The position numbers were made by a program, and so were the translations under genes. Shown here piece by piece: positions 18,812 to 34,386 of a DNA stretch of 64,000 nt; position 1 is the stretch's first letter; every line of letters starts with the position of its first letter. The stretch covers positions 124,001-188,000 of the forward strand of contig JAUYBL010000010.1 in NCBI GenBank assembly GCA_030693065.1, given 5' to 3'. The notes under the pieces were generated by a model. It was not told the origin of the DNA. It was given only the letters and a program-made list of their open reading frames with translations, and made no database searches. This DNA is from Methylococcaceae bacterium (GTDB lineage Bacteria; Pseudomonadota; Gammaproteobacteria; Methylococcales; Methylomonadaceae).

Positions 18812-20185
18812 TTATTGTTCAGCTGCTATTTTATAACGTTGCTTGGCAATTTCGCTCTCACGGGAGTGGCTCAGCATCGGAGCTGGATAATCACAAACAA
18901 CTTGTCTTTTATCCCATTGATGAATGTTTTTCGCTGAAACCTGGCTCAGCTCCGGCAACCAGCGAGCAATATATTGGCAATCGGGATCGAATTTTTCCTG
19001 CTGCCGCCAAGGATTGAAAATACGAAAATACGGCTGGGCATCGCACCCTGTGGATGCCGCCCACTGCCAATTGCCGTTGTTGACGCAAGGATCATAATCA
19101 ACCAGATGCTGGGCAAAATAACGCTCGCCCCAGCGCCAGTTGATATGCAAATCTTTCACTAAAAATGACGCCACAATCATCCGCACTCGATTGTGCATAA
19201 AACCGGTAGCATTTAACTCGCGCATGCCGGCATCGACAATAGGAAAACCGGTTTTTCCTTCGCACCAGGCTTGAAAATATTCCAGGTTATTATCCCATTG
19301 CACCCTTGCAAACTTTTCCACGAAAGCGTGGCCGAACACTTGCGGAAAGTGATAAGCAATATGGCTAAAAAAATCTCGCCAGTACAATTGCCGCTGCAAT
19401 GGATTCTCAGCGCCTAATTGCTGAGTGATGGCGTAATAGGCTTCTCTAACCGAACAGGTACCGAATTTTAAGTGTGCCGACAATTTGCTGGTGGCGTCCT
19501 GAGCAGGAAAGTCGCGGGTATTTATGTAATCCGTGCATTGCTCAATTGCAGCCAATATCGCCAATGCCTGCACTCGCCCGCCCGGCATGACTTCTGGATT
19601 CATCGTCAACGGCACGACCGCAAACGGATCCGTCAGTTCTGTTGTTACGTTAAGAAAATGTTGACTGACAAGTGGTGCCGGTAATGACACCGGAAAGCGC
19701 CGGGCATTGTTGTAAAACGCGGTAAATACTTTGTACGGCGTGTGATCATTTTTTACGGCTTGCTCAGGTTCGTTAAGCAACGCATCTGGAAGACAATGCA
19801 ACACAATACCTAGCTCATTACATAATTCTGCCAAGGCATAATCACGGCGGCGACTGAAGGGCGTGTAGTCTCTATTAATAAATACAGCCTGGATATGATG
19901 TTTTGCAACAAGCTCTCTGATGACTTGTTCCGGCGTTTGCTGGTAAAGCGCCAAGCTACCGCCAACTGTTTGTAATTGCTGCTGTAAATCGCTGATCGAC
20001 TGCAACATAAACTGCAAGGCCGGTTTACTTTGGTAAGGATGCGATTCTATTTGTGCGGGATCAAAAATAAAACACGGCAATACTTGCTCGGAGAGCCTTA
20101 ATGCTTCGTTGAGTGCAGTGTTGTCATAAAGACGCAAATCGCGACGAAAAATAAATACAGAAACAGCGTAGTGACTCATCGACAA
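18812..20185 (-). CDS. phrB: Deoxyribodipyrimidine photolyase
   Basis: Cryptochrome/photolyase family, 457 residues. The N-terminal antenna-binding alpha/beta domain starts FIFRRDLRLYDNTAL; the C-terminal FAD domain includes FPIVDAGMRELNATGFMHNR and WASTGCDAQPYFRIFNPWRQ. The enzyme uses blue or near-UV light to split cyclobutane pyrimidine dimers. Two in-frame starts exist, ATG 20185 and ATG 20179. It lies 12 bp downstream of the DUF1499 gene on the same strand, so the pair should share the divergent promoter region 20636-20799. It belongs to the surrounding light-response cluster. Confidence 0.94.
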   Translation of the reverse strand: MSMSHYAVSVFIFRRDLRLYDNTALNEALRLSEQVLPCFIFDPAQIESHPYQSKPALQFMLQSISDLQQQLQTVGGSLALYQQTPEQVIRELVAKHHIQAVFINRDYTPFSRRRDYALAELCNELGIVLHCLPDALLNEPEQAVKNDHTPYKVFTAFYNNARRFPVSLPAPLVSQHFLNVTTELTDPFAVVPLTMNPEVMPGGRVQALAILAAIEQCTDYINTRDFPAQDATSKLSAHLKFGTCSVREAYYAITQQLGAENPLQRQLYWRDFFSHIAYHFPQVFGHAFVEKFARVQWDNNLEYFQAWCEGKTGFPIVDAGMRELNATGFMHNRVRMIVASFLVKDLHINWRWGERYFAQHLVDYDPCVNNGNWQWAASTGCDAQPYFRIFNPWRQQEKFDPDCQYIARWLPELSQVSAKNIHQWDKRQVVCDYPAPMLSHSRESEIAKQRYKIAAEQ

Positions 20186-20197
20186 ACCACTACCTGT

Positions 20198-20635
20198 TTA
20201 ATCTAAAACACCAGCTTGCTGTAACTGGGCGCGGAGGGCTTCTACCCGCTTGCGATTGACCCCAAAATCACTATAGCCGGTGCGCGATGCAGAGCGAATA
20301 TGAATCAGCTTGGCCTCCGTGTCCATAAGCACATCAATATCATCGACAAAACGAAAAATAAGACTGGTAGCAGTAGCGTGTAACGTGTTGTCCGCATCTA
20401 ACGTAATAACTGTTCTACTTTGGCGGAGCAGCGCATTTTTTAATGCCGTCCATACGTCATCAGGCTGGCCGGAAAATTTAAACGGCTCGATAAAATGTCC
20501 GGCATCGCTAGCTTGGCTGGAGACGCAATTAGGTGTTTCAGGACAGGGCAATAATCGTTTTTCTGCGGTCTCAGCAGTCGTAATGGTAAATGATAGAGTC
20601 ATGGCAATAATACATAGAAGAGGTTTGATGGACAT
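20198..20635 (-). CDS. DUF1499 family protein, exported
   Basis: A 145-residue protein with an N-terminal signal peptide (about residues 1-22, ending TAETAE) and the DUF1499 signature LLPCPETPNCVSSQ. The rest is a compact domain ending with DIDVLMD and RSASRTGYSDFGVNRKR, both typical of the family. Function is unknown. It is the first gene of a two-gene minus-strand unit with phrB and is divergent from the DUF523-DUF1722 gene. I see no catalytic motif. Confidence 0.85.
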   Translation of the reverse strand: MSIKPLLCIIAMTLSFTITTAETAEKRLLPCPETPNCVSSQASDAGHFIEPFKFSGQPDDVWTALKNALLRQSRTVITLDADNTLHATATSLIFRFVDDIDVLMDTEAKLIHIRSASRTGYSDFGVNRKRVEALRAQLQQAGVLD

Positions 20636-20672
20636 AATTGTTTAGTTTTCAGAGCCTTAAAAGCCCAACCAA

Positions 20673-20699
20673 TTTGACAGAAAATATCGCCGTGTCAAA
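20673..20699. promoter_or_regulatory. Inverted repeat in the phr divergent promoter region
   Basis: A perfect 7-bp inverted repeat, TTTGACA (20673-20679) and TGTCAAA (20693-20699), with a 13-bp spacer. Each arm contains a consensus -35 hexamer TTGACA, one facing each way, in the 164-bp gap between DUF1499-phrB and DUF523-SDR. A repressor binding here could control both units. The CarH-like regulator in this window is a natural candidate, but that is inference. Confidence 0.45.
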
Positions 20700-20799
20700 C
20701 TTTAAGCGATTTTCGCCCAACTGATTGCTGCTTGCCATATCTACTTTATTAATGGAATCAGCAAATCTTTCTTAACTATTTTAGCTCTAACTCAAGCCC

Positions 20800-21735
20800 A
20801 TGAAAAAAATCCCCATTGGTATCAGCAGCTGTCTACTCGGCCATAATGTCCGTTTCGATGGCGGCCATAAACGCGATGCATATATTGCCGGTACGCTCAG
20901 CGAATATTTTGAATTTCACCCGTTCTGCCCGGAAGTGGAAATTGGCTTAGGTACGCCGCGGCCGACTATTCATTTAGTAAAGATTGCTAACGAAATACGC
21001 TGCGTGGGCGTTAAAAATCCTGAGTTGGATGTCACCGAACGCTTGCGCGATCATGCCGACCAGCAAAAACATCTGCATGCCCAGTTGTGTGGCTATATCT
21101 TCAAAAAAGATTCACCCAGTTGCGGCATGGAACGCGTCAAAGTTTATGGCGGTGCGCAACCGCATCGCGAAGGTGTAGGCATGTACGCAGAGGTAATGAT
21201 GCGCAACAACCCGTTAATACCTATAGAAGACGAAGGCCGCTTAGGCGACGCCGGCTTGCGCGAGAACTTTATCCAGCGGGTATACATCTATTACCGCTGG
21301 CAATGTTTATTGGCAGAAGGCATCAGCCCGCGCAAACTGACCGAGTTTCATGCCCGCCATAAGCTCATCATCATGAGCCATGCCGACTATGCGCCATTAG
21401 GACAATTATTAGCCGGTGTCACTCCAGGCAATGTGTCAGAAATTGCCGATATTTACATCGCGCGACTGATGAAACTACTAAAAAAAGTCGCCTCACGTAA
21501 AAATCATGTCAACGTGCTGCAACACATTCAAGGCTATCTGAAAAAGGAATTGACCGCCGATGACAAGGCTGAAATGAGTGAATTGATAGAACGTTATCGT
21601 GACGGTGAAGTACCGCTGATTGTGCCTTTAACTTTACTGAAACATCACTTCCGTAAAGCCCCTGATCCGTATATTGAACAATCGTTCTATATGTCGCCGT
21701 ATCCGCAGGAACTGCAACTGATCAATCAACTGTAA
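20800..21735 (+). CDS. DUF523-DUF1722 fusion protein (TudS/YbgA-like)
   Basis: A 311-residue protein with an N-terminal DUF523 domain (about 1-150) and a C-terminal DUF1722/YbgA domain (about 190-305, including KNHVNVLQHIQGYLKK). DUF523 has three conserved cysteines, Cys11 (SSCLLG), Cys43 (FCPEVEIGL) and Cys108 (DSPSCGM), expected to hold a [4Fe-4S] cluster; TudS members of this domain remove sulfur from thiouracil. DUF1722 is often found next to photolyase genes in gammaproteobacteria, as here. The gene is divergent from DUF1499-phrB and 3 bp ahead of the SDR gene. The exact function of the fusion is not settled. Confidence 0.85.
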   Translation: MKKIPIGISSCLLGHNVRFDGGHKRDAYIAGTLSEYFEFHPFCPEVEIGLGTPRPTIHLVKIANEIRCVGVKNPELDVTERLRDHADQQKHLHAQLCGYIFKKDSPSCGMERVKVYGGAQPHREGVGMYAEVMMRNNPLIPIEDEGRLGDAGLRENFIQRVYIYYRWQCLLAEGISPRKLTEFHARHKLIIMSHADYAPLGQLLAGVTPGNVSEIADIYIARLMKLLKKVASRKNHVNVLQHIQGYLKKELTADDKAEMSELIERYRDGEVPLIVPLTLLKHHFRKAPDPYIEQSFYMSPYPQELQLINQL

Positions 21736-21738
21736 GCC

Positions 21739-22602
21739 ATGGCGAATATACTCATTATCGGCTGCGGCGCAATTGGCTCAACGCTCGCCAACCTGCTGGC
21801 CGCACAAGGTCACCAAGTTACCGGCCTGAAACGAAAGCCACCGGCTCAACCCGGCATCATAAATTATGTTGCCGCCGACATTACGCAAGCTGCAGACCTT
21901 GAAAAATTATCCTCAGAATTTGATGTCGTGTTTTTTATCCTGTCGGCAGGTAGTCGTAATGAACAAAGCTACCGCGATATTTACGATACCGGCTTACATA
22001 ATTTGCTCCGTTACTTTGACAAGCAAAACAGCAAGCCACGTTGGGTTTTTGTGTCATCCACCAGCGTTTACGGCCAAAACAACGGTGAGTGGGTCGATGA
22101 AAGATCACTCGCCCAACCAACCAATGGCACCAGCCTATGGATCAGACAAGCCGAACAAATCCTACAGCAGCTAAGTCCTAGAAACATTATTGTGCGCTTT
22201 TCTGGGATTTATGGACCGGGCCGGGAATATTTATTAAGAACGGCACAACAAGCACCACTAATTCAACAATCTCCGCCTTATTACACTAACCGCATTCATC
22301 AAGATGACTGTGTGGGCGTATTGGCATTTTTACTGGAGCAGCATTTAGCAGGTGCAGTATTGCAATCATGCTACCTGGCCAGTGACGATGATCCCGCGCC
22401 GATGTGGGACGTTATTGCCTGGCTAGCTGCTGCTATGAACTGCCCGCCGCCGCAAGTAAAACAGGTGCCCGATAACGCGCCGATGAACAAACGCTGTAAC
22501 AATCAACGTTTGAAATCATTGGGCTATCAATTTAAATATTCCAGCTATCGAGAAGGCTATCTGCCGCTGATACTCAACCGCAATCAAGCAATTGACATTT
22601 AG
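21739..22602 (+). CDS. NAD(P)-dependent extended SDR, YeeZ-like
   Basis: A 287-residue Rossmann-fold protein of the NAD-dependent epimerase/dehydratase family. The nucleotide-binding loop is IIGCGAIGSTLANLLA near the N-terminus; VFVSSTSVYGQNNGEWVDE carries the Ser and Tyr of the SDR active-site region, and VRFSGIYGPGREYL follows. The classic YxxxK is not obvious (SLWIRQAEQIL takes its place), so the catalytic activity is uncertain. The gene begins 3 bp after the DUF523-DUF1722 gene. SDR genes accompany photolyase genes in known light-induced and singlet-oxygen regulons. Confidence 0.8.
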   Translation: MANILIIGCGAIGSTLANLLAAQGHQVTGLKRKPPAQPGIINYVAADITQAADLEKLSSEFDVVFFILSAGSRNEQSYRDIYDTGLHNLLRYFDKQNSKPRWVFVSSTSVYGQNNGEWVDERSLAQPTNGTSLWIRQAEQILQQLSPRNIIVRFSGIYGPGREYLLRTAQQAPLIQQSPPYYTNRIHQDDCVGVLAFLLEQHLAGAVLQSCYLASDDDPAPMWDVIAWLAAAMNCPPPQVKQVPDNAPMNKRCNNQRLKSLGYQFKYSSYREGYLPLILNRNQAIDI

Positions 22603-22664
22603 CAATCAGTTAATTAATAAGCGTATGATTACAGCCACTCAAAACGCAGCTGATACTATTTGAG

Positions 22665-22708
22665 TTGACAGTTTCATATATAAATATAAGTTGGACTATT
22701 AGTTCAAC
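22665..22708 (+). promoter_or_regulatory. Candidate promoter and operator of the LOV-MsrPQ operon
   Basis: A -35-like TTGACA lies at 22665-22670, and an AT-rich stretch (CATATATAAATATAAG) provides possible -10 hexamers. A near-perfect inverted repeat, GTTGGAC (22690-22696) and GTTCAAC (22702-22708), follows at the expected transcription start. A strong ribosome-binding site, GGGAGGA, precedes the first gene. The regulator is unknown. Confidence 0.4.
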
Positions 22709-22723
22709 AATAGGGAGGACGTA

Positions 22724-23209
22724 ATGCAAATCAAATTTCCATTTGATTCATCAAAACCGGTTGTCGGCGAAGCGAGTGTTGAGATTAATAAATCAATTAA
22801 TGATGTTTTCTCTTATGTCGGTGAAAATTTCTTTAATAACTACCCTAACTGGGCAGTAGAGGTTATTAAATTTCAACCCTTAGATGGAGACAAAGTTTTC
22901 ATCGGCGCAAAAGCAAAACAAGTTCGCAAAGAAAGCGGAACGGAAATTGAATCAATATTTGAAATTACTGATTATAAGCCGACGATAAGACTTTGTTTTC
23001 AAGGAGTAAACACCAACTATAAACATAGTTATTTATTAGAAACCGGCGAAAATAACCAACCCACCAAATTAACTTTTCGCTTTGAACTATCAGAACTTGA
23101 AATTTTTATGCGCCCGTTTGAAAAAATGATACGAATTGCCATTGAAGACGGCGCAGAAAATACCGTTGAAAACATTAAAAATCTAATTGAAGTGGAAACC
23201 ATTCACTAA
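22724..23209 (+). CDS. SRPBCC-fold protein
   Basis: A 161-residue soluble protein whose pattern fits the SRPBCC (START/polyketide cyclase-like) fold: an opening beta strand with VGEASVEINKSINDVFSYV, central strands ending with PTIRLCFQG, and a long C-terminal helix (MIRIAIEDGAENTVENIKNLIE). Such proteins bind hydrophobic ligands in a cavity. The ATG at 22724 follows a strong GGGAGGA site. It is the first of five closely spaced plus-strand genes running to msrQ. The ligand is unknown; being in an operon with a LOV sensor and a lipid hydroxylase suggests a lipid or pigment. Confidence 0.7.
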   Translation: MQIKFPFDSSKPVVGEASVEINKSINDVFSYVGENFFNNYPNWAVEVIKFQPLDGDKVFIGAKAKQVRKESGTEIESIFEITDYKPTIRLCFQGVNTNYKHSYLLETGENNQPTKLTFRFELSELEIFMRPFEKMIRIAIEDGAENTVENIKNLIEVETIH

Positions 23210-23254
23210 ATTAATAGCAATTATTTTTTTTAAAAAAGATTATGGAGTTTAATT

Positions 23255-23713
23255 ATGGCTTTTTTTGTTGTAGATAAAGATAACGGTCTTATTCCCCAAG
23301 TTCTATCCGCCATCTTAGATGAATGTATTAACGGCATTACTTTATCAGACCCGGATTTAGAAGATTCACCCATTATTTATGCCAATAAATCATTCGAACG
23401 TTTAACTGGTTATAGCCAAGAAGAGATTATTGGCCGTAATTGCCGTTTTCTTCAAGGCGAAGATACCGAACAAGAGGCAAGGCATCAAATTGCCGAGGCT
23501 ATGAGTAAGCACGAAGCGGTTGAAGTTAATTTACGTAATTATAAAAAAGACGGTACTTTATTTTATAATCATTTAAAAATAGTACCTTTGTTCGACAGAA
23601 AGCAGCGTGTTCTTTACTACCTTGGCGTGCAGTACGATATAACTAAAGATATTAACGCTAAAAATGAGATAAAAACCTTAACTGAATTATTAAACGCAGT
23701 GCCAAAAAAGTAA
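23255..23713 (+). CDS. Short LOV photoreceptor (PAS/LOV domain protein)
   Basis: A 152-residue protein that is essentially a single LOV domain. The flavin-adduct motif GRNCRFLQG has the photoactive cysteine at Cys63, followed by NLRNYKKDGTLFYNHLKI, where two asparagines and the NYKKDG block contact the flavin ring, and GVQYDIT, which carries the conserved glutamine. A short C-terminal helix (about 130-150) is the only extension, as in the short LOV proteins of Pseudomonas putida. Such proteins sense blue light by a cysteinyl-FMN adduct and signal by dimer rearrangement; no output domain is fused. It lies 45 bp after the SRPBCC gene and 39 bp before the hydroxylase gene. Confidence 0.9.
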   Translation: MAFFVVDKDNGLIPQVLSAILDECINGITLSDPDLEDSPIIYANKSFERLTGYSQEEIIGRNCRFLQGEDTEQEARHQIAEAMSKHEAVEVNLRNYKKDGTLFYNHLKIVPLFDRKQRVLYYLGVQYDITKDINAKNEIKTLTELLNAVPKK

Positions 23714-23752
23714 TCCAGCGTTTATTTTTCACTTAAAATTGTAGGTAAGCTT

Positions 23753-24580
23753 ATGAATACAAATAATACTTCAAATAGTGGCGGCCTATTTTTTAATGAA
23801 GCCTTATTTGGTCTGGCTATTCTGGCTTTTATTTTGTTATTAGTTATTGAGAAAAAACATCCTTTCCGCCACTTTCCAGTCAAAATTTATAAAGATTCTT
23901 TTGTTACCAATACCACGGCCTTTTTAATTAATAATCTGATATTGACGGTACTTCGGGCCTCTTCATTATTTTTAGTCGCACAACAATTTGCATCTTATGG
24001 TTTATTAGGTGGCTTAGAAAACGGCCCTATAAAATGGCTACTTGCTTTCGCTTTGTTTGATTTGGCCATTTATGCTTGGCACGTTGCCAGCCATAAATAC
24101 GAGTGGCTGTGGCGCTTCCATAAAGTGCATCACAGCGACAAAGGCTTTAACGTCTCTACTGGCTTTCGCTTTCACGTTTTCGACCTATTGTTAGAAATAA
24201 TTTATAAGTGTGCGTTTGTTGTCGTCATTGGCGTCAATGCGTATTTAGTTCTTTCTATTGAAATAGTCGAACTGTTTTTTATAATGTTTCATCATGCCAA
24301 CATTCGCGTGCCTAATGAAGATATTATTTCAAAATTTTTTATAACTCCATCATTACACCGAACGCATCATTCAACCGCACGTAATGAACATGACAGTAAC
24401 TATGGCATTGTCTTATCGATATGGGATCAAATGTTCGGCACACGAAAAGAATTGATTCCTCAACATATTGGCCTGGATTTGATTGAGGCTGAAAATTATA
24501 TTCAGCTTTTTTCATTAGCTTTTATCACCGAAAGAAAAATAAAAGCTTTATTTGGTTGGATTCCGAAAGGAAAGAAATAG
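23753..24580 (+). CDS. Fatty-acid hydroxylase/sterol desaturase family membrane protein
   Basis: A 275-residue integral membrane di-iron oxygenase. Histidine clusters typical of the family are seen: WHVASH, RFHKVHH, MFHHANIRVP and LHRTHHS. About four transmembrane segments precede and separate them (18-36, 60-80, 95-115, 145-175). Members hydroxylate or desaturate lipids, sterols or carotenoids. The substrate here is unknown; operon context with LOV and MsrPQ suggests a membrane lipid change under light stress. Gaps are 39 bp upstream and 31 bp downstream. Confidence 0.88.
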   Translation: MNTNNTSNSGGLFFNEALFGLAILAFILLLVIEKKHPFRHFPVKIYKDSFVTNTTAFLINNLILTVLRASSLFLVAQQFASYGLLGGLENGPIKWLLAFALFDLAIYAWHVASHKYEWLWRFHKVHHSDKGFNVSTGFRFHVFDLLLEIIYKCAFVVVIGVNAYLVLSIEIVELFFIMFHHANIRVPNEDIISKFFITPSLHRTHHSTARNEHDSNYGIVLSIWDQMFGTRKELIPQHIGLDLIEAENYIQLFSLAFITERKIKALFGWIPKGKK

Positions 24581-24611
24581 TATTTTAACTATTTAAAATA
24601 TATCACCAAGT

Positions 24612-25568
24612 ATGATTATTAAAACTACAAAAGAGTTAGTTGCTAGTGAAATAACTGATATTTCGGTATTTAAACGGCGGCGGCAAATTATTAAAGCTGC
24701 ATTAGCAGCGATGGTTGCAGGTGAGTTTATTGCGCCAGCAATAGCCGCTAACAACAACTCGAATTGGGCGAATTTACCTAAGAGTAATTATGCGGATAAG
24801 TCATTAACACCGACACCTGCTGGGCTTATTAAAAATTATACTAACTATTATGAGTTTGCATTTAATAAACAAGACTCAACAGATTTAGCAAAAAATCTTC
24901 GCACCGATGCTTGGTCTGTAGAAATAACTGGCGAAGTGGAAAAACCAGGACATTATTATCTTGAGGACATTTTAAGTCAGCAGTCTCTTCAGGAATATAT
25001 CTACCGTTTTCGTTGTGTCGAAGCTTGGTCAATGGTTGTACCGTGGATTGGTTTTCCATTAGCCGACTTATTAAAGTCAGTACAGCCTTTGTCAACCGCC
25101 AGATTTGTAAAATTTACCTCTGTTTATCAACCTGACACTATGCCAAAACAAGCCAGTAACCAAATGCTGGAATGGCCGTATGTTGAAGGTTTACGTATTG
25201 ATGAAGCGATGCATCCTTTAACAATATTGGCCGTCGGGTTATATGGGGATATTCTGCCAAATCAAAATGGTGCGCCATTACGTTTGATTGTGCCCTGGAA
25301 GTACGGCTTTAAAAGTATTAAAGCCATTGTAAAAATTGAACTTTTAAAAAGGCCGCCGATTACCAGCTGGAATAGTTTTGCACCTAATGAATATGGCTTT
25401 TACGCAAATGTAAATCCCGACGTCGCTCATCCACGTTGGAGTCAAAACAGCGAACGTCAATTAGGTAGCACTTTTTTTACGCCACGTAGGCAAACAGAAT
25501 TATTTAATGGCTATGGCGAGCAAGTAGCGTCACTTTATAGTGAAATGAATTTAAGGCATTTTTTCTAA
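24612..25568 (+). CDS. msrP: Protein-methionine-sulfoxide reductase catalytic subunit MsrP
   Basis: Periplasmic molybdoenzyme (YedY family), 318 residues. The N-terminal twin-arginine signal is KRRRQIIKAALAAMVAG, cleaved near APAIAANN. The molybdenum-coordinating cysteine is Cys135 in FRCVEAWSMVVPW. The C-terminal block LIVPWKYGFKSIKAIVKIEL is typical. MsrP repairs oxidised methionine in periplasmic proteins using electrons from MsrQ. Its stop overlaps the msrQ start. It is the fourth gene of the LOV operon. Confidence 0.95.
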   Translation: MIIKTTKELVASEITDISVFKRRRQIIKAALAAMVAGEFIAPAIAANNNSNWANLPKSNYADKSLTPTPAGLIKNYTNYYEFAFNKQDSTDLAKNLRTDAWSVEITGEVEKPGHYYLEDILSQQSLQEYIYRFRCVEAWSMVVPWIGFPLADLLKSVQPLSTARFVKFTSVYQPDTMPKQASNQMLEWPYVEGLRIDEAMHPLTILAVGLYGDILPNQNGAPLRLIVPWKYGFKSIKAIVKIELLKRPPITSWNSFAPNEYGFYANVNPDVAHPRWSQNSERQLGSTFFTPRRQTELFNGYGEQVASLYSEMNLRHFF

Positions 25569-26188
25569 TGACTTATTTAATCAGCAGATTATGGACACTA
25601 TCAATTGTCGGATGTTTAATTCCATTTCTGTGGTTAATTGTTGATATTACTTTTGATAATTTAGGATCAAATCCGATCCAAGAATTACATATCCGCTTAG
25701 GTGATTGGTCATTGCGTTTTTTATGGATAACGCTGGCCATTACACCAATTCAAACCATTACCAAATGGCGCGGCATGACAGATTATCGGCAATTATTTGG
25801 CTTGTGCGCATTCTTTTATGCAACGCTACATGTGCTGGGTTATTTAGTTGTTGACCATTACTTTCAATGGCGAATTATTGGTATAGATATACTGGAAAGT
25901 TCTTATATTTGGTTTGGCATAATTGCTTATTTTATAACGTTGTTATTAGCTCTTTCATCGCCAAAATGGGCCAAAAAGCGTTTGGGCAAAACCTGGAAAA
26001 AATTGCATCGTTTTATTTATATTGCCGCTTGTGCAGCGATTATGCATTATTTCTGGCAACTGAAAGGCAATCTGGCCGACCCGTTATTTTATCTATTAGT
26101 CATTTTTATATTATTGGGTTTCCGAGGTTTAGTTTGGTTAAAGGATCGCCAATTAGCCCAACTAATGCTCCCCAAAAGTACCAAGTAA
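25568..26188 (+). CDS. msrQ: MsrQ, haem-binding membrane subunit of MsrPQ
   Basis: A 206-residue ferric-reductase-like membrane protein (YedZ) with about six transmembrane segments. Candidate haem-b histidines include those in ATLHVLGY, KLHRFIY and MHYFWQ. It passes electrons from the quinone pool or flavin reductases to MsrP. The ATG overlaps the msrP stop codon (TAATG), so the two are translationally coupled. It ends the five-gene run and converges with the BLUF gene 6 bp away. Confidence 0.94.
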   Translation: MTYLISRLWTLSIVGCLIPFLWLIVDITFDNLGSNPIQELHIRLGDWSLRFLWITLAITPIQTITKWRGMTDYRQLFGLCAFFYATLHVLGYLVVDHYFQWRIIGIDILESSYIWFGIIAYFITLLLALSSPKWAKKRLGKTWKKLHRFIYIAACAAIMHYFWQLKGNLADPLFYLLVIFILLGFRGLVWLKDRQLAQLMLPKSTK

Positions 26189-26194
26189 TACTCC

Positions 26195-27067
26195 CTATTC
26201 CTTATTTTGAATTAGCCAATAAGTAACACCCAATGCCACCAGCACCAATGCGGAGGCGCTTACATATTCAGACGACAAACTTTTGTAGTCAAATACGATG
26301 ACTTTTCGAGAAATAGCCATCAGTGCCGTTGCCACTACCAGCTTAACTGGGATGACATCGCTTCTTATATATAACGTGATATTCAAAAATATTTCGATGG
26401 CAATTAACACCGCAAGAAAGGCCCCAAAAGTTTCCAGCATGTCGTTAATGCTCAATAACAACATTGGTGGCTCGACTATTTTTTGGTACATGACATAAAC
26501 CACGTCGACAATGCCAAACAGAATGACGACAACCATTAACAACGCTAAAAACTTCACGCCAATGCGAATAGTTCGATGCAATAACTGTATGAAGGGATCT
26601 TCATGCTGCATCGGCAATTCTTCGTGGCTTACTGACGGCCCCACTTGACTAATCAATTTTGCTCGCAAATGGGACAACAATGGTGCGATTACATATTTAT
26701 GAGCCGCTAAGCCTGAAGGCGTAAAGTCCTGGGCAAAAAAATCGTTAAAGCCAGGTATCGCCGTTAATTGATTGCTATCAACACTTTCAAATCCCATGCT
26801 CCAATAAGGAAAAGCGCGCTCAACGATGGGTTGTTTTTCAATAATGGTGACATCGGTATGGCGCGGGTCTTTTTCAATTAAGGCATACATGCTGTTGACA
26901 CTGGCTTCATCGCCTTCCAGTACCTGTAAAAAAGTGTTGTTCGAAAACAATAAAATTCCGGTAATGTTCTTGGCACTATTGTGCGCCCGACATTCTTTTA
27001 ATAGTTTTAACAGGTCTTCGGTGCCCCATGCACTCAACGCGGTACTGGCATAAATTAATCTGATCAT
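26195..27067 (-). CDS. BLUF blue-light sensor fused to a PsiE-like membrane domain
   Basis: A 290-residue protein. Residues 1-95 are a BLUF domain with every key residue at the spacing known from AppA: Tyr6, Asn30, Gln48 (FLQVLEG), Trp89 and Met91 (YWSMGF). After a linker (96-160), residues 165-287 hold four hydrophobic segments (171-192, 210-232, 240-258, 268-286) with the PsiE-family signature MAISRKVIVFD. BLUF binds FAD and senses blue light through a Tyr-Gln hydrogen-bond switch. PsiE is a phosphate-starvation-inducible membrane protein of unknown action. The fusion implies a light-gated membrane output. The gene is divergent from the MerR/B12 regulator across 156 bp. Confidence 0.88.
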   Translation of the reverse strand: MIRLIYASTALSAWGTEDLLKLLKECRAHNSAKNITGILLFSNNTFLQVLEGDEASVNSMYALIEKDPRHTDVTIIEKQPIVERAFPYWSMGFESVDSNQLTAIPGFNDFFAQDFTPSGLAAHKYVIAPLLSHLRAKLISQVGPSVSHEELPMQHEDPFIQLLHRTIRIGVKFLALLMVVVILFGIVDVVYVMYQKIVEPPMLLLSINDMLETFGAFLAVLIAIEIFLNITLYIRSDVIPVKLVVATALMAISRKVIVFDYKSLSSEYVSASALVLVALGVTYWLIQNKE

Positions 27068-27160
27068 GGCCGCCTTCCTCGAAATTTTTATTATTGTTAT
27101 GTTGCCCAGTCGAACCTATCACAAAAACCAAGTGGTCATATTAAGTTTTTTGCACATATA

Positions 27161-27192
27161 TTGTCTAAGTTTTGTAAAGGTTCTGATACAAT
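27161..27192 (+). promoter_or_regulatory. Candidate promoter/operator of the MerR-B12 regulator gene
   Basis: A -35-like TTGTCT (27161-27166) and -10-like TACAAT (27187-27192) are separated by 20 bp, the over-long spacing often seen at MerR-family promoters. An inverted repeat TTGTA (27172-27176) and TACAA (27187-27191) lies in the spacer and -10. This may be an autoregulatory site in the gap shared with the divergent BLUF gene. Confidence 0.35.
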
Positions 27193-27223
27193 GTGACCTC
27201 ACTCATCCTATGCGAAGAAGCCT

Positions 27224-28210
27224 ATGTCCACTCAAAAGGATAATTCTGCACAATACCTTATCAGCACGGTAACCAAGCGCTCTGGCGTTAAGTCCGATTT
27301 GGTCAGAGCCTGGGAAAGACGATACCAAGCAGTCAGTCCAACCCGCACTGCAGGCGGACATCGTGTTTATACCGATTTGGATATTGCTCGATTAAAATTA
27401 TTGAATGAGGCCACCAGCAGTGGTCACAGCATTGGTCAAATCGCCAATTTATCATTGGATGATTTGAAAAAACTATTGCAACATGAGTCTTCAGCCCCGG
27501 TTTCGGCTTATAGATCAAGCACTCCACCCGCTGCGGTCACTAGCGAACGACGTTTTCTTGCCGAAGATTACATAGAAAAATGCTATGCCGCAGTGCTGGC
27601 TTTTGACGCACATGCCTTGGAATCACATTTTGAAAATGCCATCGTCGAACTCGGGCCGCAACTATTTATTGAAAACCTGTTAACCCCTCTATTAACTCAG
27701 ATTGGTGAACGCTGGCGAGACGGCGAGTTAAGACCCGTCCATGAACACATGGCCTCGTCTATTATTCGTTCGTTAACCTACATTTTGCGCAATAACACGC
27801 CTTGCGCAGCAAATGCCCCAAGAATGATTGTGACCACGCCAATTGGTCAGCTCCATGAACTTGGCGCCTTGCTGGCAGCAATCATTGCCGAGTTTAAAAA
27901 CTGGAAAGTGACTTATCTGGGTGCTAATTTGCCTTCTGAGGAAATAGCGGCTGCAGTGAAGTACACCCAAGCCAATGCCGTTACCTTGAGCATTAGTTTT
28001 AGCGCTGATGATTTGGTGGTACCTCGAGAATTGCGCAAACTGAGAAAACTGATCGGCAATGACAAAGCATTGATAGTTGGCGGCAGATCGGCCGGGCATT
28101 ATCAAGCCGTACTGGATGAAGTCGGTGTACTAAAAATTCAAAACTATGATCATTTCAGATTACTGCTTGATGAACTCGCAGCCAAGCATTATGCAGAGCA
28201 GTCAACGTAA
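27224..28210 (+). CDS. MerR-family regulator with B12-binding domain (CarH/LitR-like)
   Basis: A 328-residue protein: MerR winged HTH (about 10-85; AWERRYQAVSPTRTAGGHR), a four-helix cap (about 113-190) and a Rossmann B12-binding domain (about 198-320). The CarH adenosyl-capping motif W-x9-EH is intact: Trp164, Glu174, His175. His211 in GQLHELG matches the lower cobalt ligand. CarH/LitR proteins bind adenosylcobalamin, hold their DNA as tetramers in the dark and let go on illumination. The residue after the tryptophan is Arg165, where Thermus CarH has the histidine that caps cobalt after light exposure, so the photoproduct may differ. The cob operon starts 48 bp downstream on the same strand. 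Confidence 0.88.
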   Translation: MSTQKDNSAQYLISTVTKRSGVKSDLVRAWERRYQAVSPTRTAGGHRVYTDLDIARLKLLNEATSSGHSIGQIANLSLDDLKKLLQHESSAPVSAYRSSTPPAAVTSERRFLAEDYIEKCYAAVLAFDAHALESHFENAIVELGPQLFIENLLTPLLTQIGERWRDGELRPVHEHMASSIIRSLTYILRNNTPCAANAPRMIVTTPIGQLHELGALLAAIIAEFKNWKVTYLGANLPSEEIAAAVKYTQANAVTLSISFSADDLVVPRELRKLRKLIGNDKALIVGGRSAGHYQAVLDEVGVLKIQNYDHFRLLLDELAAKHYAEQST

Positions 28211-28258
28211 GATCCCCATTTATCTGCCCGCGTGGTCAGTCAAAACGTCTAAGTCGAC

Positions 28259-29005
28259 ATGCCCCACCCCAAACTCTTTTTAGTAGCGTTAAGTTTTTAT
28301 ACCCGCTTGCCGATGCCGCCAACACTGAATCATCGACGCCTACCCGAAGCCATTTTATATTTACCGCTAGTCGGTTGGCTGGTTGGCAGCATTTCTGCAT
28401 TTGGTTTTTATCTAGCCCTGTCGCTTTGGCCTTTATCGACAGCAATACTCCTGACATTGCTTGTTGGCATTATGATCACCGGCGCTTTACATGAAGATGG
28501 CTTTGCCGATGTCTGCGATGGCTTTGGCGGTGGCTGGGGCAAGCAACGTATTCTTGAAATCATGAAAGACTCACACATTGGCGTTTACGGTGTACTGGGC
28601 TTACTGTTACTGATACTGTTAAAATTCACCACCCTCAGCAGCCTACCAGCCGTTGCAATCCCGCTAATATTGATTGCCGGACACAGCATCAGCCGACTCA
28701 TGCCATTACTGTTGATGCATAAGCTGGACTATGCCCGTAATGATCAAAGCAAATCTGCCGCAGCTATTTACCGACCTAATCGCCAACAATTAGCCGTTGC
28801 CGGATGCACCGCATTACTACCGCTATTGCTGTTGCCACCGTTATGCATACTGGCGATTATTCCGGTACTGCTCAGCACTGTATTTCTGGGCAAATATTTT
28901 TTCCGTCATATCGGCGGCTATACCGGCGACTGCCTGGGCGCAAGCCAGCAAGTCGCCGAAGTGTTTTTTTATTTAAGCGTGAGTGCCTTATGGAAATTTA
29001 TTTAA
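28259..29005 (+). CDS. cobS: Adenosylcobinamide-GDP ribazoletransferase
   Basis: Polytopic membrane enzyme of 248 residues that joins adenosylcobinamide-GDP to alpha-ribazole (phosphate), the last assembly step of cobalamin. Family motifs are SFYTRLPMP near the N-terminus and GALHEDGFADVCDGFGGG with the metal-binding acidic residues, then KDSHIGVYG. About six hydrophobic segments follow. It is the first gene of the cob run, 48 bp after the B12-dependent regulator, with no riboswitch-sized leader between them. Its 3' end overlaps cobC by 16 bp. Confidence 0.93.
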   Translation: MPHPKLFLVALSFYTRLPMPPTLNHRRLPEAILYLPLVGWLVGSISAFGFYLALSLWPLSTAILLTLLVGIMITGALHEDGFADVCDGFGGGWGKQRILEIMKDSHIGVYGVLGLLLLILLKFTTLSSLPAVAIPLILIAGHSISRLMPLLLMHKLDYARNDQSKSAAAIYRPNRQQLAVAGCTALLPLLLLPPLCILAIIPVLLSTVFLGKYFFRHIGGYTGDCLGASQQVAEVFFYLSVSALWKFI

Positions 29006-29553
29006 TTCGCCACACCCATACCGCTAATGATCCAGGGGTCTGCTATGGACAAAGCGATGTGGCGCTGGCGGACAGTTTTGAAACAGAACTGGCTGTTATT
29101 CACAACAAATTACCGGAATTTAACGACGATTGCTTAGTGTTTAGCAGTCCGCTGAGTCGTTGTTTGACCTTGGCTGAAACATTTTCAGACGATGTAACCA
29201 CCGATGCGCGCCTGCAAGAACTGAACTTCGGCGACTGGGAAGGCCAACGCTTTGATGACTTGCCCGCTGATGTCTTGCAACATTGGACTGATAACTATGT
29301 CACCGCTGCCCCGCCCAACGGCGAAACCTTTGAAGATTTATATCAACGTAGCGGCGATTTTTGGCAAGAGCTATTGGCAACCAAAGCGGAACAAGCATTA
29401 GTCGTCACCCATGCCGGCGTTATCCGGGCATTACTGGCCCGGGCATTGAATCTGCCCTTAGCCAATTCATTTCAGCTACGTATTGACTCGGGTTCCGTAA
29501 ATAAACTGCGGCACACTGATGATTATCTTTATGTTGAATACATCAACCTGTAA
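28990..29553 (+). CDS. cobC: Alpha-ribazole phosphatase
   Basis: Histidine-phosphatase family protein of 187 residues. The catalytic RHG-type motif is LIRHTHT at the N-terminus, and the second histidine lies in LVVTHAGVIRALL. It removes phosphate from alpha-ribazole phosphate or the cobalamin phosphate. The frame is open upstream inside cobS, but MEIYLIRHTHTAND at 28990 is the family start. It overlaps cobS by 16 bp and its stop overlaps the cobD start (TAATG), indicating translational coupling. Confidence 0.9.
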   Translation: MEIYLIRHTHTANDPGVCYGQSDVALADSFETELAVIHNKLPEFNDDCLVFSSPLSRCLTLAETFSDDVTTDARLQELNFGDWEGQRFDDLPADVLQHWTDNYVTAAPPNGETFEDLYQRSGDFWQELLATKAEQALVVTHAGVIRALLARALNLPLANSFQLRIDSGSVNKLRHTDDYLYVEYINL

Positions 29554-30620
29554 TGCACGGCGGCAACATTTATCAGTTTGCAGCACAACTGGGCTGCCTG
29601 CCGGAACAGGTGCTGGATTTTTCCGCTAACATCAACCCCGAGCAGGCGGCCGACTTAAGCTGCCTGCAACAAGTACAGCTAACCCCGTATGCTGAGCCTC
29701 AATATCACCTGCTAAAACAAGCCTTTAAAAACCGTTATCCCTTACCGGCAGCCGCGGATATTGAGCCTTTTAACGGCGCCAGCGCGGCCATTTTCGGCTT
29801 ATTGCGGCATTTAAAGCCTAAGGATTTGGTGCTGTACACCCCGCTCTACGGAGAATACCGGCATAGCGCAGAACAACTGGGCTGCAAGCTACATACTGTT
29901 AACCGGCTGATCGACATCAACGCCGATATTCCGCCAAACAGCACGGTCATTTTTGTGAATCCATCCACACCGGATGGCCAGCTGTATGATCTAAAAGCCT
30001 TAATGAAAGCTTGGCAAGCAGCCAACTGCACCATCATCATTGACGAGTCTTTTCTGGATTTTTGCGATGCCGAATCAATAACCCAGCTAATCGGTACTAT
30101 CGATAAGCTTTATGTCGTTAAGTCGTTAAGCAAGTTTTACGGCTGTGCCGGTATTCGAATCGGTTTTATTGTTGCGGCTGCCCAAGCTATTGCCGATCTG
30201 CAACTCGGTGAACCGGCCTGGAAATGCTCCAGCCTGGATATGGCTTACATGCAGCAAGCGCTGGCAAATACCGACTTTATAGAACGCACCCGGCAGCAAA
30301 CTGATTATCTAAGAAACTTGCTCAACATAGCCTTGCAAGAGTCCGGTCTGTTTGAGACCATCTACCCTAGCCAGGCCAATTTTTTGCTGGCGCGCTTGGC
30401 TCAAGGCATGGATGGTTACCAATTGCAGCAACATCTGGCGACTGACCGAATCCTAATTCGGGTGTGTGAAAATTTCGACGGGCTAGACAACTACCATGTC
30501 CGCTTTGCGGTCAAAAATGAGCCGTCCATCAAACATCTGGCGCTCAACTTAAATACATTAAGCCCTCAGTTGGTGGGAGCGACGCCTACGTCGCGACTAA
30601 AAACTCAAATCGCGACGTAG
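29553..30620 (+). CDS. cobD: L-threonine-O-3-phosphate decarboxylase CobD
   Basis: Fold type I PLP enzyme, 355 residues. It begins MHGGNIYQFA, a CobD hallmark, and Lys194 in VKSLSKFYGCAGIRIG binds PLP. It makes aminopropanol phosphate for the cobalamin side chain. Other naming systems call it CobC. The last 15 or so residues (from about 340: VGATPTSRLKTQIAT) are encoded by a palindromic repeat whose right arm supplies the stop codon, so the natural C-terminus was probably shorter or different. CbiB, its partner, is two genes downstream. Confidence 0.92.
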   Translation: MHGGNIYQFAAQLGCLPEQVLDFSANINPEQAADLSCLQQVQLTPYAEPQYHLLKQAFKNRYPLPAAADIEPFNGASAAIFGLLRHLKPKDLVLYTPLYGEYRHSAEQLGCKLHTVNRLIDINADIPPNSTVIFVNPSTPDGQLYDLKALMKAWQAANCTIIIDESFLDFCDAESITQLIGTIDKLYVVKSLSKFYGCAGIRIGFIVAAAQAIADLQLGEPAWKCSSLDMAYMQQALANTDFIERTRQQTDYLRNLLNIALQESGLFETIYPSQANFLLARLAQGMDGYQLQQHLATDRILIRVCENFDGLDNYHVRFAVKNEPSIKHLALNLNTLSPQLVGATPTSRLKTQIAT

Positions 30621-30634
30621 GCGTCGCTCCCACC
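30572..30634. repeat. 25-bp palindromic repeat overrunning the end of cobD
   Basis: A perfect 25-bp inverted repeat occupies 30572-30596 and 30610-30634 with a 13-nt loop. The arm begins GGTGGGAGCGACGCCTACG, similar to the GTGGGAGCG-type REP sequences of gammaproteobacteria. The left arm is read as coding sequence and the right arm contains the cobD stop codon at 30618-30620. Confidence 0.9.
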
Positions 30635-30672
30635 CGTTTGCTTGCTGTGCATAACTCTATAAACATCAACTC

Positions 30673-32073
30673 ATGAAGTCTCTAGCCATTTTCGGCACCA
30701 GCTCAGACGCCGGCAAAACCACGCTCGTAATGGCTTTATGCCGTATTTTTGCCGACCGCGGCATCAACGTCGCGCCCTTTAAGGCACAAAACGTTTCCAA
30801 CAATTCCGCGGTGACCATTGAAGGTCGTGAGATTTCTCGCGCTCAATGCCTGCAGGCAGAAGCGGCGCGGGTCGAGCCTAGCTACCTGTTTAATCCGGTG
30901 CTGCTCAAATCGCACGGCAACAGTTCGGTGCAAGTAATCGTCAATGGACTGGTCACTGACAATCAGTCAGTAGTCGAGTATTACCAGAAAATCGACGGCC
31001 TAAAAGAACACGTCAAATACGCCTTTAACCAGCTCCAGCAAGACTACGATTTGGTCATTGCCGAAGGCGCAGGCTCGCCGGTTGAGCTGAATTTATTACA
31101 TAAAGACTTGTCTAACACCTTCGTTGCCAACACCTTTAATACGAAAAACATTTTGGTCGCGGACATTGAACGCGGCGGCGTGTTTGCCTCCATTTACGGC
31201 ACCTTGGAACTGATGGACCCGGTCATGCGCAGCAATTTAATCGGCGTTATCGTCAACAAGTTTCGCGGCGACCGGCGTTTTTTTGACGAAGGCGAAACCA
31301 TCATCCGCGAGCGCTTTGGCGTGCCGGTGTTAGGCGTGTTGCCGTTTCAGCCGATGAATATCGACATGGAAGACTCGCAATCGTTAAGTAATTACCGGCA
31401 GCGTCTTGATGACGTCAAACTGCGCATTGCCGTAATTGCTTATCCGGGCTTGAGTAATTACAACGATCTGGATGCGCTGATGGCCGACCCAGAATTGCAT
31501 ATTGAAATGATTCACGCATATAGGCCATTGACTGACTTTGACATGGTGCTGTTGCCCGGCAGTAAAACCGTGATTCGGGATTTGCACTGGTTAAAACATC
31601 AAGGCTTATTTAACGAACTGCAACACTTTGATAAACCCATCTTCGGCATCTGCGGTGGCTATCAAATGCTGTGCGGGCAGCTGCATGATCCCAATGCGCT
31701 TGAACATGACCATGCCATTGTTGAAGCAGGCTTAGGGTTTATTCCAGACGATGTGCATTATCAGCAACCCAAAATCCTAGCGCGCGGCGACTACCAACTG
31801 TTTTCTCATGACGCCATCAAAGGCTATGAAATTCATTGCGGTCGCATGGCTAAATACCCACTTTATTACCAAGATGGCCTCTACAGTGGTACCCATGTCC
31901 ATGGCGTCTTTGATGATGACGGCTTGCGCACCAATTACTTCAAGACCATCAACCCAAATTACCAAGGTTATGCCTACGCATCCTACCGAGAAGAGCAAAT
32001 TCAGGGCTTTGCCGACATGGTGGCAGACAATCTCGATCTATCAGCCATCTTAGAAGCGCTACAGGCCGACTGA
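30673..32073 (+). CDS. cobQ: Cobyric acid synthase
   Basis: Glutamine amidotransferase of 466 residues (CbiP type). The N-terminal ATPase domain starts FGTSSDAGKTTLVMALC, with KAQNVSNNSAVT next. The C-terminal class I-like amidotransferase domain has LLPGSKTVIRDL and the nucleophile cysteine in GICGGYQMLCGQL. It amidates four carboxyl side chains of adenosyl-cobyrinic acid a,c-diamide. It starts 52 bp after cobD, across the palindromic repeat, and abuts cbiB with an overlap. Confidence 0.95.
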   Translation: MKSLAIFGTSSDAGKTTLVMALCRIFADRGINVAPFKAQNVSNNSAVTIEGREISRAQCLQAEAARVEPSYLFNPVLLKSHGNSSVQVIVNGLVTDNQSVVEYYQKIDGLKEHVKYAFNQLQQDYDLVIAEGAGSPVELNLLHKDLSNTFVANTFNTKNILVADIERGGVFASIYGTLELMDPVMRSNLIGVIVNKFRGDRRFFDEGETIIRERFGVPVLGVLPFQPMNIDMEDSQSLSNYRQRLDDVKLRIAVIAYPGLSNYNDLDALMADPELHIEMIHAYRPLTDFDMVLLPGSKTVIRDLHWLKHQGLFNELQHFDKPIFGICGGYQMLCGQLHDPNALEHDHAIVEAGLGFIPDDVHYQQPKILARGDYQLFSHDAIKGYEIHCGRMAKYPLYYQDGLYSGTHVHGVFDDDGLRTNYFKTINPNYQGYAYASYREEQIQGFADMVADNLDLSAILEALQAD

Positions 32074-32969
32074 TGTTTTTTGAATTAGCCCTATTGGCCT
32101 ACCTGTTCGATAAACTATTCGGCGAACTGCCCGGAAAACACCCGATCATGTGGATGGGCGATTTTATTGCCGGATTTGAACGGCGTTTTTATCGCAACCG
32201 GCTGTTACCCGGCGCGCTATTGGTGATCAGCCTGTTGCTGGTGACCTTTCTTATCAGTATCGGTTTGGTGGCATTGACTGACTCCCTGCCCGGCTGGCTG
32301 GCGTTGCCCATCCAAGCAATACTGGCGTCCACCGGTCTGGCGATGAACATGCTCCATACCAGCGTTGCAGGATTACTCACCACAGACCAGCCCAGGCAGG
32401 CAATACGTTATTTGGTCAGCCGCGACACCGAAACCATGACCAATACTGAAATTTACAAAGCCGGACTGGAAACCTGGGCAGAAAACTTAAGCGACGGCGT
32501 TATTGCGCCGCTGTTTTATTTGCTACTGTTCGGCCTGCCCGGCATTGCCGTGTACAAAGCCATCAACACCATGGATTCGATGATTGCCTACAAAACCGAA
32601 CGCTATTTTTACTTCGGCAAAACCGCCGCTATCATCGATGACATCGCCAATTTTATCCCGGCGCGCCTGACCGCTTTATTGATCGTGTGCCTGGCAAAAA
32701 ATAAACGCCACGCCTGGCAATGCTGCCTGAGTGACGGCAATAAACTGGAAAGCCCCAATGCCGGTTACCCAATTGCGGCGATGGCGGGCGGCTTAAGTAT
32801 CGCATTGGGTGGCGACGCCAGTTACCACGGCCAAATAAAACATAAACCATCGTTGGGCGTTTCGATCAACCCGCTCGACAAAAGCACGCTTGAACAAGGG
32901 TTACACATGCGCACCAGCATCGACCGAACCGTATTAACTTTGTTGCTAACAGGCGCATTACTGACATGA
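32073..32969 (+). CDS. cbiB: Adenosylcobinamide-phosphate synthase CbiB
   Basis: Polytopic membrane protein of 298 residues. Family motifs are FDKLFGELPGKHPIMWMG at the N-terminus, RYLVSRDTETMTNTEIYKAG, ETWAENLSDGVIAPLFY and INTMDSMIAYK. It attaches aminopropanol (phosphate), made from CobD product, to cobyric acid. Start overlaps the cobQ stop and the end overlaps cobU by 4 bp, so the operon is tightly coupled. Synonym cobD in the Pseudomonas denitrificans naming. Confidence 0.94.
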   Translation: MFFELALLAYLFDKLFGELPGKHPIMWMGDFIAGFERRFYRNRLLPGALLVISLLLVTFLISIGLVALTDSLPGWLALPIQAILASTGLAMNMLHTSVAGLLTTDQPRQAIRYLVSRDTETMTNTEIYKAGLETWAENLSDGVIAPLFYLLLFGLPGIAVYKAINTMDSMIAYKTERYFYFGKTAAIIDDIANFIPARLTALLIVCLAKNKRHAWQCCLSDGNKLESPNAGYPIAAMAGGLSIALGGDASYHGQIKHKPSLGVSINPLDKSTLEQGLHMRTSIDRTVLTLLLTGALLT

Positions 32970-33463
32970 AAACCCTATTCATCGGCGGCATCAAAAGCGG
33001 TAAATCGCGCCTCGCGGAAAGCCATATCCTTGCCATTGCAGGTAACACCAAGCCTTATTATTTAGCCACGACCGAGTTTTTTGATGACGAAATGCAAGCT
33101 CGCATTCAAGTTCATAAGCAACAACGCCAAGATGCCTTCATTACTATTGAAGAGCCGCTTAAACTATTTAGCGCCGTGCAATCCTGCCCCGGCCCGGTGC
33201 TGATCGAATGCATCTCCATGTGGCTCAACAACCAGCTGTATCACCAAATCCCCGAAGTCGACACACTACAAGAATTGGCTGCCGTATTAAAACTGCCCAA
33301 TGATTTGGTGCTGGTACACAACGAAGTCGGTCTTGGTATCATCCCCGACAACCCACTGGCTCGCCAGTTTGTCGACCTATCCGGCCGTGCCGCACAGCTA
33401 ATGGCCCAGCATTGCGACCACGTATTTTTTTGCAGTGCGGGCCTGAAGTTGCAGATGAAATAA
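32966..33463 (+). CDS. cobU: Adenosylcobinamide kinase/guanylyltransferase
   Basis: A 165-residue P-loop enzyme with Walker A GGIKSGKSRLAE at the N-terminus. Later motifs are LIECISMWLNN and VLVHNEVGLGIIPDNPLARQF, both typical of CobU/CobP. It phosphorylates adenosylcobinamide and activates it with GMP for CobS. The ATG overlaps the cbiB stop (ATGA). It closes the cob operon. The partner cobT, which makes alpha-ribazole phosphate, is not in the window. Confidence 0.94.
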   Translation: MKTLFIGGIKSGKSRLAESHILAIAGNTKPYYLATTEFFDDEMQARIQVHKQQRQDAFITIEEPLKLFSAVQSCPGPVLIECISMWLNNQLYHQIPEVDTLQELAAVLKLPNDLVLVHNEVGLGIIPDNPLARQFVDLSGRAAQLMAQHCDHVFFCSAGLKLQMK

Positions 33464-33552
33464 GTCTTCGAATATTTTTACTAAAAACCGTACTTATTAC
33501 ATTGAGATTACTATAATGGCCTGCTAATCCGTTGCCACGAAAGGACTTTTCT

Positions 33553-34386
33553 ATGTCAGATAAAAATAACGATACCAAAGAACAGAATGCCGACAAGGTA
33601 CAAATCTGGGTAAAAAAAGATGCACTGGAATATGAAGAAGAACTGCGCAGGCTACAGGTCGAGCTATTAAAGTTTCAAAACCATGTCAAAGAACAAGGCC
33701 TACGCGTGTTAATGCTGTTTGAAGGCCGCGATGCCGCGGGCAAAGGCGGTACTATCAAGCGCATTACCGAACATTTAAATCCGCGTGGCGCGAAAGTCGT
33801 GGCGCTGGAGAAGCCGTCTAATACCGAAAGAACTCAGTGGTATTTTCAACGCTACGTCAATTACCTGCCATCAGCTGGCGAAATGGTGCTATTTGATCGC
33901 TCTTGGTATAACCGAGCAGGTGTTGAACCGGTGATGGGTTTTTGCAGCGAGGTAGAGCACAAGGAGTTTTTACGCGAGACGCCGGAATTTGAAAAAATGC
34001 TGGTGAATTCCGGGATTATTTTTATCAAATTCTACTTTTCAGTCAGTAAAAAAGAACAGGCTCGACGCTTTAATGGCCGCATTAACGATCCGTTAAAGCA
34101 GTACAAAATTTCACCCGTTGATATGGAAGCGCAAAAGCTATGGGACAAATACACTATCGCTAAGTATTCCATGCTGCTTTCCACTCACATGCCTTATGCG
34201 GAGTGGACGGTAATTAAATCCGACAATAAAAAGAAGGCGAGAATAAACTGCATCAAATATATTTTATCGCACGTGGATTACCCGGATAAAATTGCCGATG
34301 ACCAGTTACAAATAGATCAATCCATTCTGTTAAACGGCTCGAATGAGCTAAAAAGAATGGAATTGAACATGAATAAGGCTTTATAA
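33553..34386 (+). CDS. ppk2: Polyphosphate kinase 2
   Basis: PPK2-family kinase of 277 residues from the ATG at 33553, which has a GAAAGGAC ribosome-binding site; an upstream in-frame alternative at 33532 lacks one. Walker A is FEGRDAAGKGGTIKR, Walker B is MVLFDRSWYNRAGVEPVMGF, and the lid module with basic residues follows the FYFSVSKKEQARRF block. Single-domain members phosphorylate nucleoside mono- or diphosphates with polyphosphate. A -10-like TATAAT lies at 33512-33517, so it has its own promoter apart from the cob operon. Confidence 0.93.
   Translation: MSDKNNDTKEQNADKVQIWVKKDALEYEEELRRLQVELLKFQNHVKEQGLRVLMLFEGRDAAGKGGTIKRITEHLNPRGAKVVALEKPSNTERTQWYFQRYVNYLPSAGEMVLFDRSWYNRAGVEPVMGFCSEVEHKEFLRETPEFEKMLVNSGIIFIKFYFSVSKKEQARRFNGRINDPLKQYKISPVDMEAQKLWDKYTIAKYSMLLSTHMPYAEWTVIKSDNKKKARINCIKYILSHVDYPDKIADDQLQIDQSILLNGSNELKRMELNMNKAL

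Follow-up and report, generated by a model that had tools for sequence, protein, structure and literature searches.

A predicted CarH-controlled promoter may couple late B12 synthesis to AdoCbl and light in one genus of Methylococcales

The 64,000-nucleotide stretch of DNA analysed here (the window) carries a carH/litR-type regulator gene immediately in front of six late B12 synthesis genes. On balance we favour the reading that an autorepressed CarH promoter drives late B12 synthesis and would thereby establish an AdoCbl- and light-dependent feedback.

The host genome is 3.96 Mb in size and 99.93% complete; its nearest kin are methane-oxidising gamma-proteobacteria of the Methylococcales. The original prediction gave the same-strand order carH-cobS-cobC-cobD-cobQ-cbiB-cobU with 48 bp between carH and cobS, and both order and gap were confirmed by open reading frames and family matches (Table 1). 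All six cob genes after carH lie on the + strand and several abut or overlap, cobC and cobS by 16 nt. The 8 kb to the left of carH is a cluster of light-stress genes, and the carH neighbourhood is like the light-response clusters of LitR regulators described in the available part of PMC9758184. Three chemically distinct light sensors, based on flavin-LOV, flavin-BLUF and B12, are encoded inside 5 kb. The BLUF-PsiE gene, as well as a hairpin between cobD and cobQ that is described below, had been missing from the earlier account of this DNA.

Table 1. Features of the carH-cob locus and its neighbourhood (positions in the window).
Feature	Position	Strand	Remarks
Light-stress genes	18812-26188	.	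photolyase, DUF1499, RudS, SDR, START-like, LOV, fatty-acid hydroxylase, msrP, msrQ
Short LOV protein	23255-23713	+	GRNCRFLQ motif; in light cluster adjoining carH
BLUF-PsiE gene	26195-27067	-	blue-light sensing BLUF domain joined to PsiE membrane domain; divergent from carH
Promoter-like site for the BLUF gene	27138-27167	-	TAGACA-18-TAATAT; consensus scan only
Predicted CarH operator	27148-27180	+	three tandem 11-bp repeats; TGTnnA on + = TnnACA on -
Extended -10 like element of presumed carH promoter	27184-27192	+	TGATACAAT; inferred from sequence
carH/litR-type regulator	27224-28210	+	MerR HTH + four-helix B12-binding_2 + B12-binding domains
Codon for the residue after the conserved Trp	27716-27718		CarH residue 165
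carH-cobS gap	28211-28258	+	48 bp; no promoter, terminator or riboswitch match
cobS, adenosylcobinamide-GDP ribazoletransferase	28259-29005	+	family match
cobC, alpha-ribazole phosphatase	28990-29553	+	family match; start codon taken from sequence
cobD, threonine-phosphate decarboxylase-like	29553-30620	+	TIGR01140 245.8 bits, under cut-off 290.55
Perfect inverted repeat, 25 bp	30572-30634	+	between cobD and cobQ, at cobD end
cobQ, cobyric acid synthase	30673-32073	+	family match
cbiB, adenosylcobinamide-phosphate synthase	32073-32969	+	family match
cobU, adenosylcobinamide kinase/guanylyltransferase	32966-33463	+	148.3 bits, cut-off 161

The nearest solved structures to the regulator are those of Thermus CarH. 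The window protein contains RAWERRY at residues 28-34, and RxWERRY is present in all 44 Methylococcales homologues. The Wx9EH motif is intact at residues 164-175 (W164, E174 and H175), with the Trp kept in 41/44 and the Glu-His pair in 44/44 of the homologues. The B12 motif of CarH, defined in the available text of PMC9304148 as D/ExHx2G-x41-SxT/V-x22-27-GG, is represented in the window protein by H211, G214, S256, S258 and G286-287 at exact spacing; the lower-ligand His corresponding to His211 is kept in 43 of the 44 homologues and the final GG in every one. The D/E position is a Gln and the T/V position a Ser, each in 43/44. The residue following the conserved Trp is Lys or Arg in 39/44 and His in none, so a Thermus-type bis-His light adduct would be unavailable in the same form, and the light state of these proteins has to be unlike that of Thermus CarH. 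The NCBIfam equivalog model for CarH (NF052513) gave the window protein 120.5 bits, below its cut-off of 400, which was reached in none of 398 sampled genomes of the phylum; the model is therefore narrow. Both B12 domains are present in the window protein, unlike the B12-binding_2 domain alone that characterises class II LitR. AdoCbl binding and light-driven release of DNA are putative properties of the regulator.

CarH tetramers bind tandem 11-bp repeats of the form nnnnTnnACAn, according to the part of PMC9304148 that was available. Three such repeats, which overlap the presumed promoter, are predicted upstream of carH, the first of them imperfect (27148-27158) and the other two perfect (27159-27169 and 27170-27180). 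Just downstream lies the -10 like element of the presumed carH promoter, whose -35 is poor; the same element, TGATACAAT, and the same operator are found in the sister species (L075). By consensus scan, the BLUF gene has a promoter-like site of its own, whose -35 falls inside the repeats. With the window and L075 left out, 39 loci served to build a weight matrix, which scored the carH operator at 35.3 bits, the next best site in the window at 15.2 and the maximum over 20 random 64-kb sequences at 18.2. With duplicate contigs across locus sets counted once (44 loci and the window), the strict pattern TTGTnnA-N4-TTGTnnA was present upstream of carH in 40 of the 44 Methylococcales loci long enough to be tested (L055 was too short) and upstream of 1/466 other ORFs in the same loci. 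Among the operator sites, that of L046 was misplaced and that of L066 is probably a chance match. The weight-matrix scan found no CarH operator above chance before the photolyase, RudS and LOV genes of the window. Tandem 11-bp repeats that overlap a promoter are the arrangement of CarH / class I LitR, and the carH promoter is probably shut off by a sensor of the CarH type, as judged from the sequence.

The 48-bp gap contains no terminator in a terminator scan, and its RNA folds no better than shuffled sequences (z +1.14). A consensus scan found no sigma-70-like promoter on the + strand inside carH or the gap; promoter-like sites were not enriched (8 found vs 11.5 expected in shuffles). Rfam returned no match at gathering score in the whole 64-kb window. 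With the threshold relaxed to E<=5, positions 26000-34000 gave no riboswitch either, only five eukaryotic or viral small-RNA families at chance level. The original prediction that neither a terminator nor a riboswitch is visible between carH and cobS is upheld by both searches, and cotranscription of carH with the cob genes is likely. Three of the five chance-level Rfam families fall on one hairpin, formed by the inverted repeat at the end of cobD, with a folding energy of -60 kcal/mol (z -9.5) and no T run after it. The exact repeat is absent from 166 loci compared. This hairpin is a possible damper of readthrough, so one message spanning all six genes should not be taken for granted.

Cobalamin riboswitches (RF00174) are present at two places elsewhere in the genome. 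One precedes a TonB-dependent receptor gene (L127); the other precedes an operon with cobB, cobM, cobH-type, cbiD, cobL-type, cobI, cbiG-type and cobJ genes, which also has cobalt-transport-like genes (named by eye). No gathering-score match to RF00174 lies upstream of carH or cobS. The placement of both riboswitches at early genes and the TonB receptor, with none at the carH-cob locus, suggests a division of labour in which ring synthesis and the receptor would follow an RNA switch and nucleotide-loop assembly would follow carH.

The carH neighbours vary across the Methylococcales. Among 45 carH loci of the order, the gene that follows on the same strand within 300 bp belongs to the YcgN family in 22, is a cob gene in two and another gene in one; the remaining loci have an opposite-strand gene (14), a more distant gene (2) or a contig end (4). 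A YcgN-family cysteine-cluster gene, for example L071:9031-9459, is the usual downstream partner. Cob genes after carH occur only in this genome and the sister species of the same genus, where a carH 87% identical to that of the window is followed after 31 bp by cobC and then cobQ, and cobS is located elsewhere with bluB and cobT. A conserved carH-cob coupling across the order was accordingly rejected (2/45 loci). In the phylum sample, 54 of 398 genomes had a match to the CarH model at E<=1e-15. The search for cobS covered the 38 genomes with the stronger matches, this genome included, together with the sister genome (G003); the 16 omitted genomes had weaker matches, some of them to the HTH alone. 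No carH headed cob genes in the 37 other CarH-bearing genomes, 31 of which have cobS. Two cases of proximity were considered and rejected: in G137 the genes are separated by ~4 kb, in which a phytoene-desaturase-like ORF runs on the opposite strand, and in G083 by 18 kb. The CarH-like gene of G137 is divergent from that phytoene-desaturase-like ORF (L165:1005-2675). The carH-cob link is young.

A likely origin of the link is indicated by 16 further relatives whose cobS is close (58-69%). carH precedes cobS in none of them; cobT was found upstream of cobS in seven, within -1 to 90 nt in four of these, where cobS is closely packed inside an operon. No riboswitch was found near the 16 cobS genes in the stretches examined, which reach at most 1.5 kb to either side. 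The genome of the window has bluB-cobT alone on another contig (C9). As the simplest history, a break between cobT and cobS probably freed the late operon, which was re-attached behind carH. If the late block formerly relied on a promoter further upstream, it would now rely on that of carH.

With the operator model, a scan of the whole genome gave two strong sites (E 1.3e-5 each), the next having E 0.21. The window operator is one of the 41 rows of this model (R1), so its match at the window is not independent. The second site (L126:3058-3087) is on the same contig (C26), 148 kb from the carH site and ~150 bp upstream of a gene for an RpoD-like 459-aa sigma factor, behind a lipocalin gene. Across 61 genomes at E<=0.1, under strict filters that may lose weak sites, operators were found before carH in nine and before a homologue of the sigma gene in seven (G000, G001, G003, G015, G020, G026 and G036), with a doubtful eighth (G033). 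The sigma homologues in other genera are 43-51% identical, so that their orthology is presumed. No operator lies near cob genes in 35 loci (L121-L155), apart from the two carH-cob loci; this set holds mostly the E<=0.1 matches in the 61 genomes, with own-genome matches to E 5 and three regions chosen by place. Because operators recur before carH and the sigma gene and not before cob genes, the conserved regulon would comprise carH and a sigma factor, and the conserved job of CarH would seem to be control of its own gene and of a sigma-factor cascade, not of B12 synthesis.

In the proposed mechanism, a rearrangement in the genus would have put a promoterless late B12 block behind carH, and the carH promoter would transcribe cobS-cobC-cobD-cobQ-cbiB-cobU. 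In the dark and with AdoCbl, CarH would occupy its three 11-bp repeats, in the stretch that separates carH from the BLUF gene, and repress carH, the late cob genes and probably the BLUF gene too. In light, or when AdoCbl is lacking, the tetramer would fall apart and all of these genes would be expressed. Sufficient AdoCbl in the dark would then lead to repression, and shortage of the cofactor or its breakage by light would lead to resupply. The feedback between a B12 regulator and B12 synthesis put forward in the original prediction is mechanically plausible, given the CarH signature, the conserved operator, the absence of a visible separate cobS promoter and the position of cobS inside an operon in four relatives, but as a general design it is unsupported (2/45 loci, 0/37 genomes). 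An adaptive coupling of light and B12 control to the cob genes is also plausible. A wider version, in which the B12 photoreceptor acts as a protein substitute for a riboswitch, light resets the loop and the second operator feeds a sigma cascade for light defence, is tentative, and we would place it somewhat short of an even chance.

The favoured feedback model has several observations against it. The cob link occurs in just two species, both in one genus, and common ancestry could by itself account for it; the first cob gene differs between them, the sister species having cobC and not cobS after carH; and with carH neighbours so fluid across the order, and none of the 37 other CarH genomes showing the link, the juxtaposition might be a product of chance. 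A recent rearrangement would then have brought cotranscribed cob genes under light and B12 control without benefit and without selection. Yet the adjacency holds in both species despite the reshuffling of cob genes behind carH, and the regulator and the cob genes share one small molecule. We regard chance as unlikely, if still a serious contender.

Further points weigh on the feedback model itself: the second conserved target is a sigma gene and not a cob gene, the very stable hairpin between cobD and cobQ could cut readthrough, the D/E site of the lower-ligand motif holds a Gln, no His follows the Trp, and the -35 is poor. The late cob genes might instead be served by a promoter of their own, concealed within the gap or the 3' end of carH, and escape CarH control. 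The sigma-70 scan is blind to promoters of other sigma factors; nevertheless, no match was seen on the + strand in carH or the gap, and in four relatives cobS sits a short way behind cobT; we hold such a promoter to be improbable. CarH might also act as a MerR-type activator on a long-spacer promoter, where loss of B12 or exposure to light would lower cob expression and not raise it. In favour of this, the repeats stand ahead of the extended -10 element, and the closest -35-like hexamer is ~20-21 bp away. In the available part of PMC9304148, however, the characterised B12-binding CarH proteins repress and their operators overlap promoters, and we consider activation very improbable.

If the feedback model is true, a B12 light sensor would govern how much of its chromophore is made, and the cell would replace light-damaged coenzyme as the need arises. 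A review (PMC8123684) describes the genes under B12 photoreceptors as having no apparent relation to B12 metabolism, and among open-licence PMC papers none was found on CarH control of B12 synthesis. Through the conserved operator, the CarH regulon of methane oxidisers, carH and one sigma-factor gene, can now be tested; the operator and the predicted sigma-factor target raise the interest of the locus beyond its first reading.

Among known systems, CarH / class I LitR of Thermus thermophilus, Bacillus megaterium and myxobacteria have the same domain order, RxWERRY, Wx9EH and lower-ligand His, and the same operator of tandem 11-bp TnnACA repeats over a promoter; the known ones stand before carotenoid genes, whereas the window regulator stands before late B12 genes. 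In Streptomyces, LitR controls the sigma factor LitS. The likeness lies in a B12 light repressor placed before a sigma-factor gene, and the difference in the type of sigma factor, an RpoD-like 459-aa factor here and a small ECF factor in LitS. Control by a cobalamin riboswitch would serve the same end, an AdoCbl-dependent shut-off, through RNA and not through a protein and operator as predicted here. Class II LitR regulators (PmlR2/PmSB-LOV of Pseudomonas mendocina and PplR of P. putida), in the portion of PMC9758184 available, share the setting of photolyase and short LOV genes. They differ in lacking a functional B12 domain and in their site, TGTACA-N12-TGTACA; the window regulator has a complete B12 domain, and its repeats recur every 11 bp. 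Seen against these systems, the carH-cob circuit as a B12 feedback would be a form of the known CarH control that is peculiar to one lineage.
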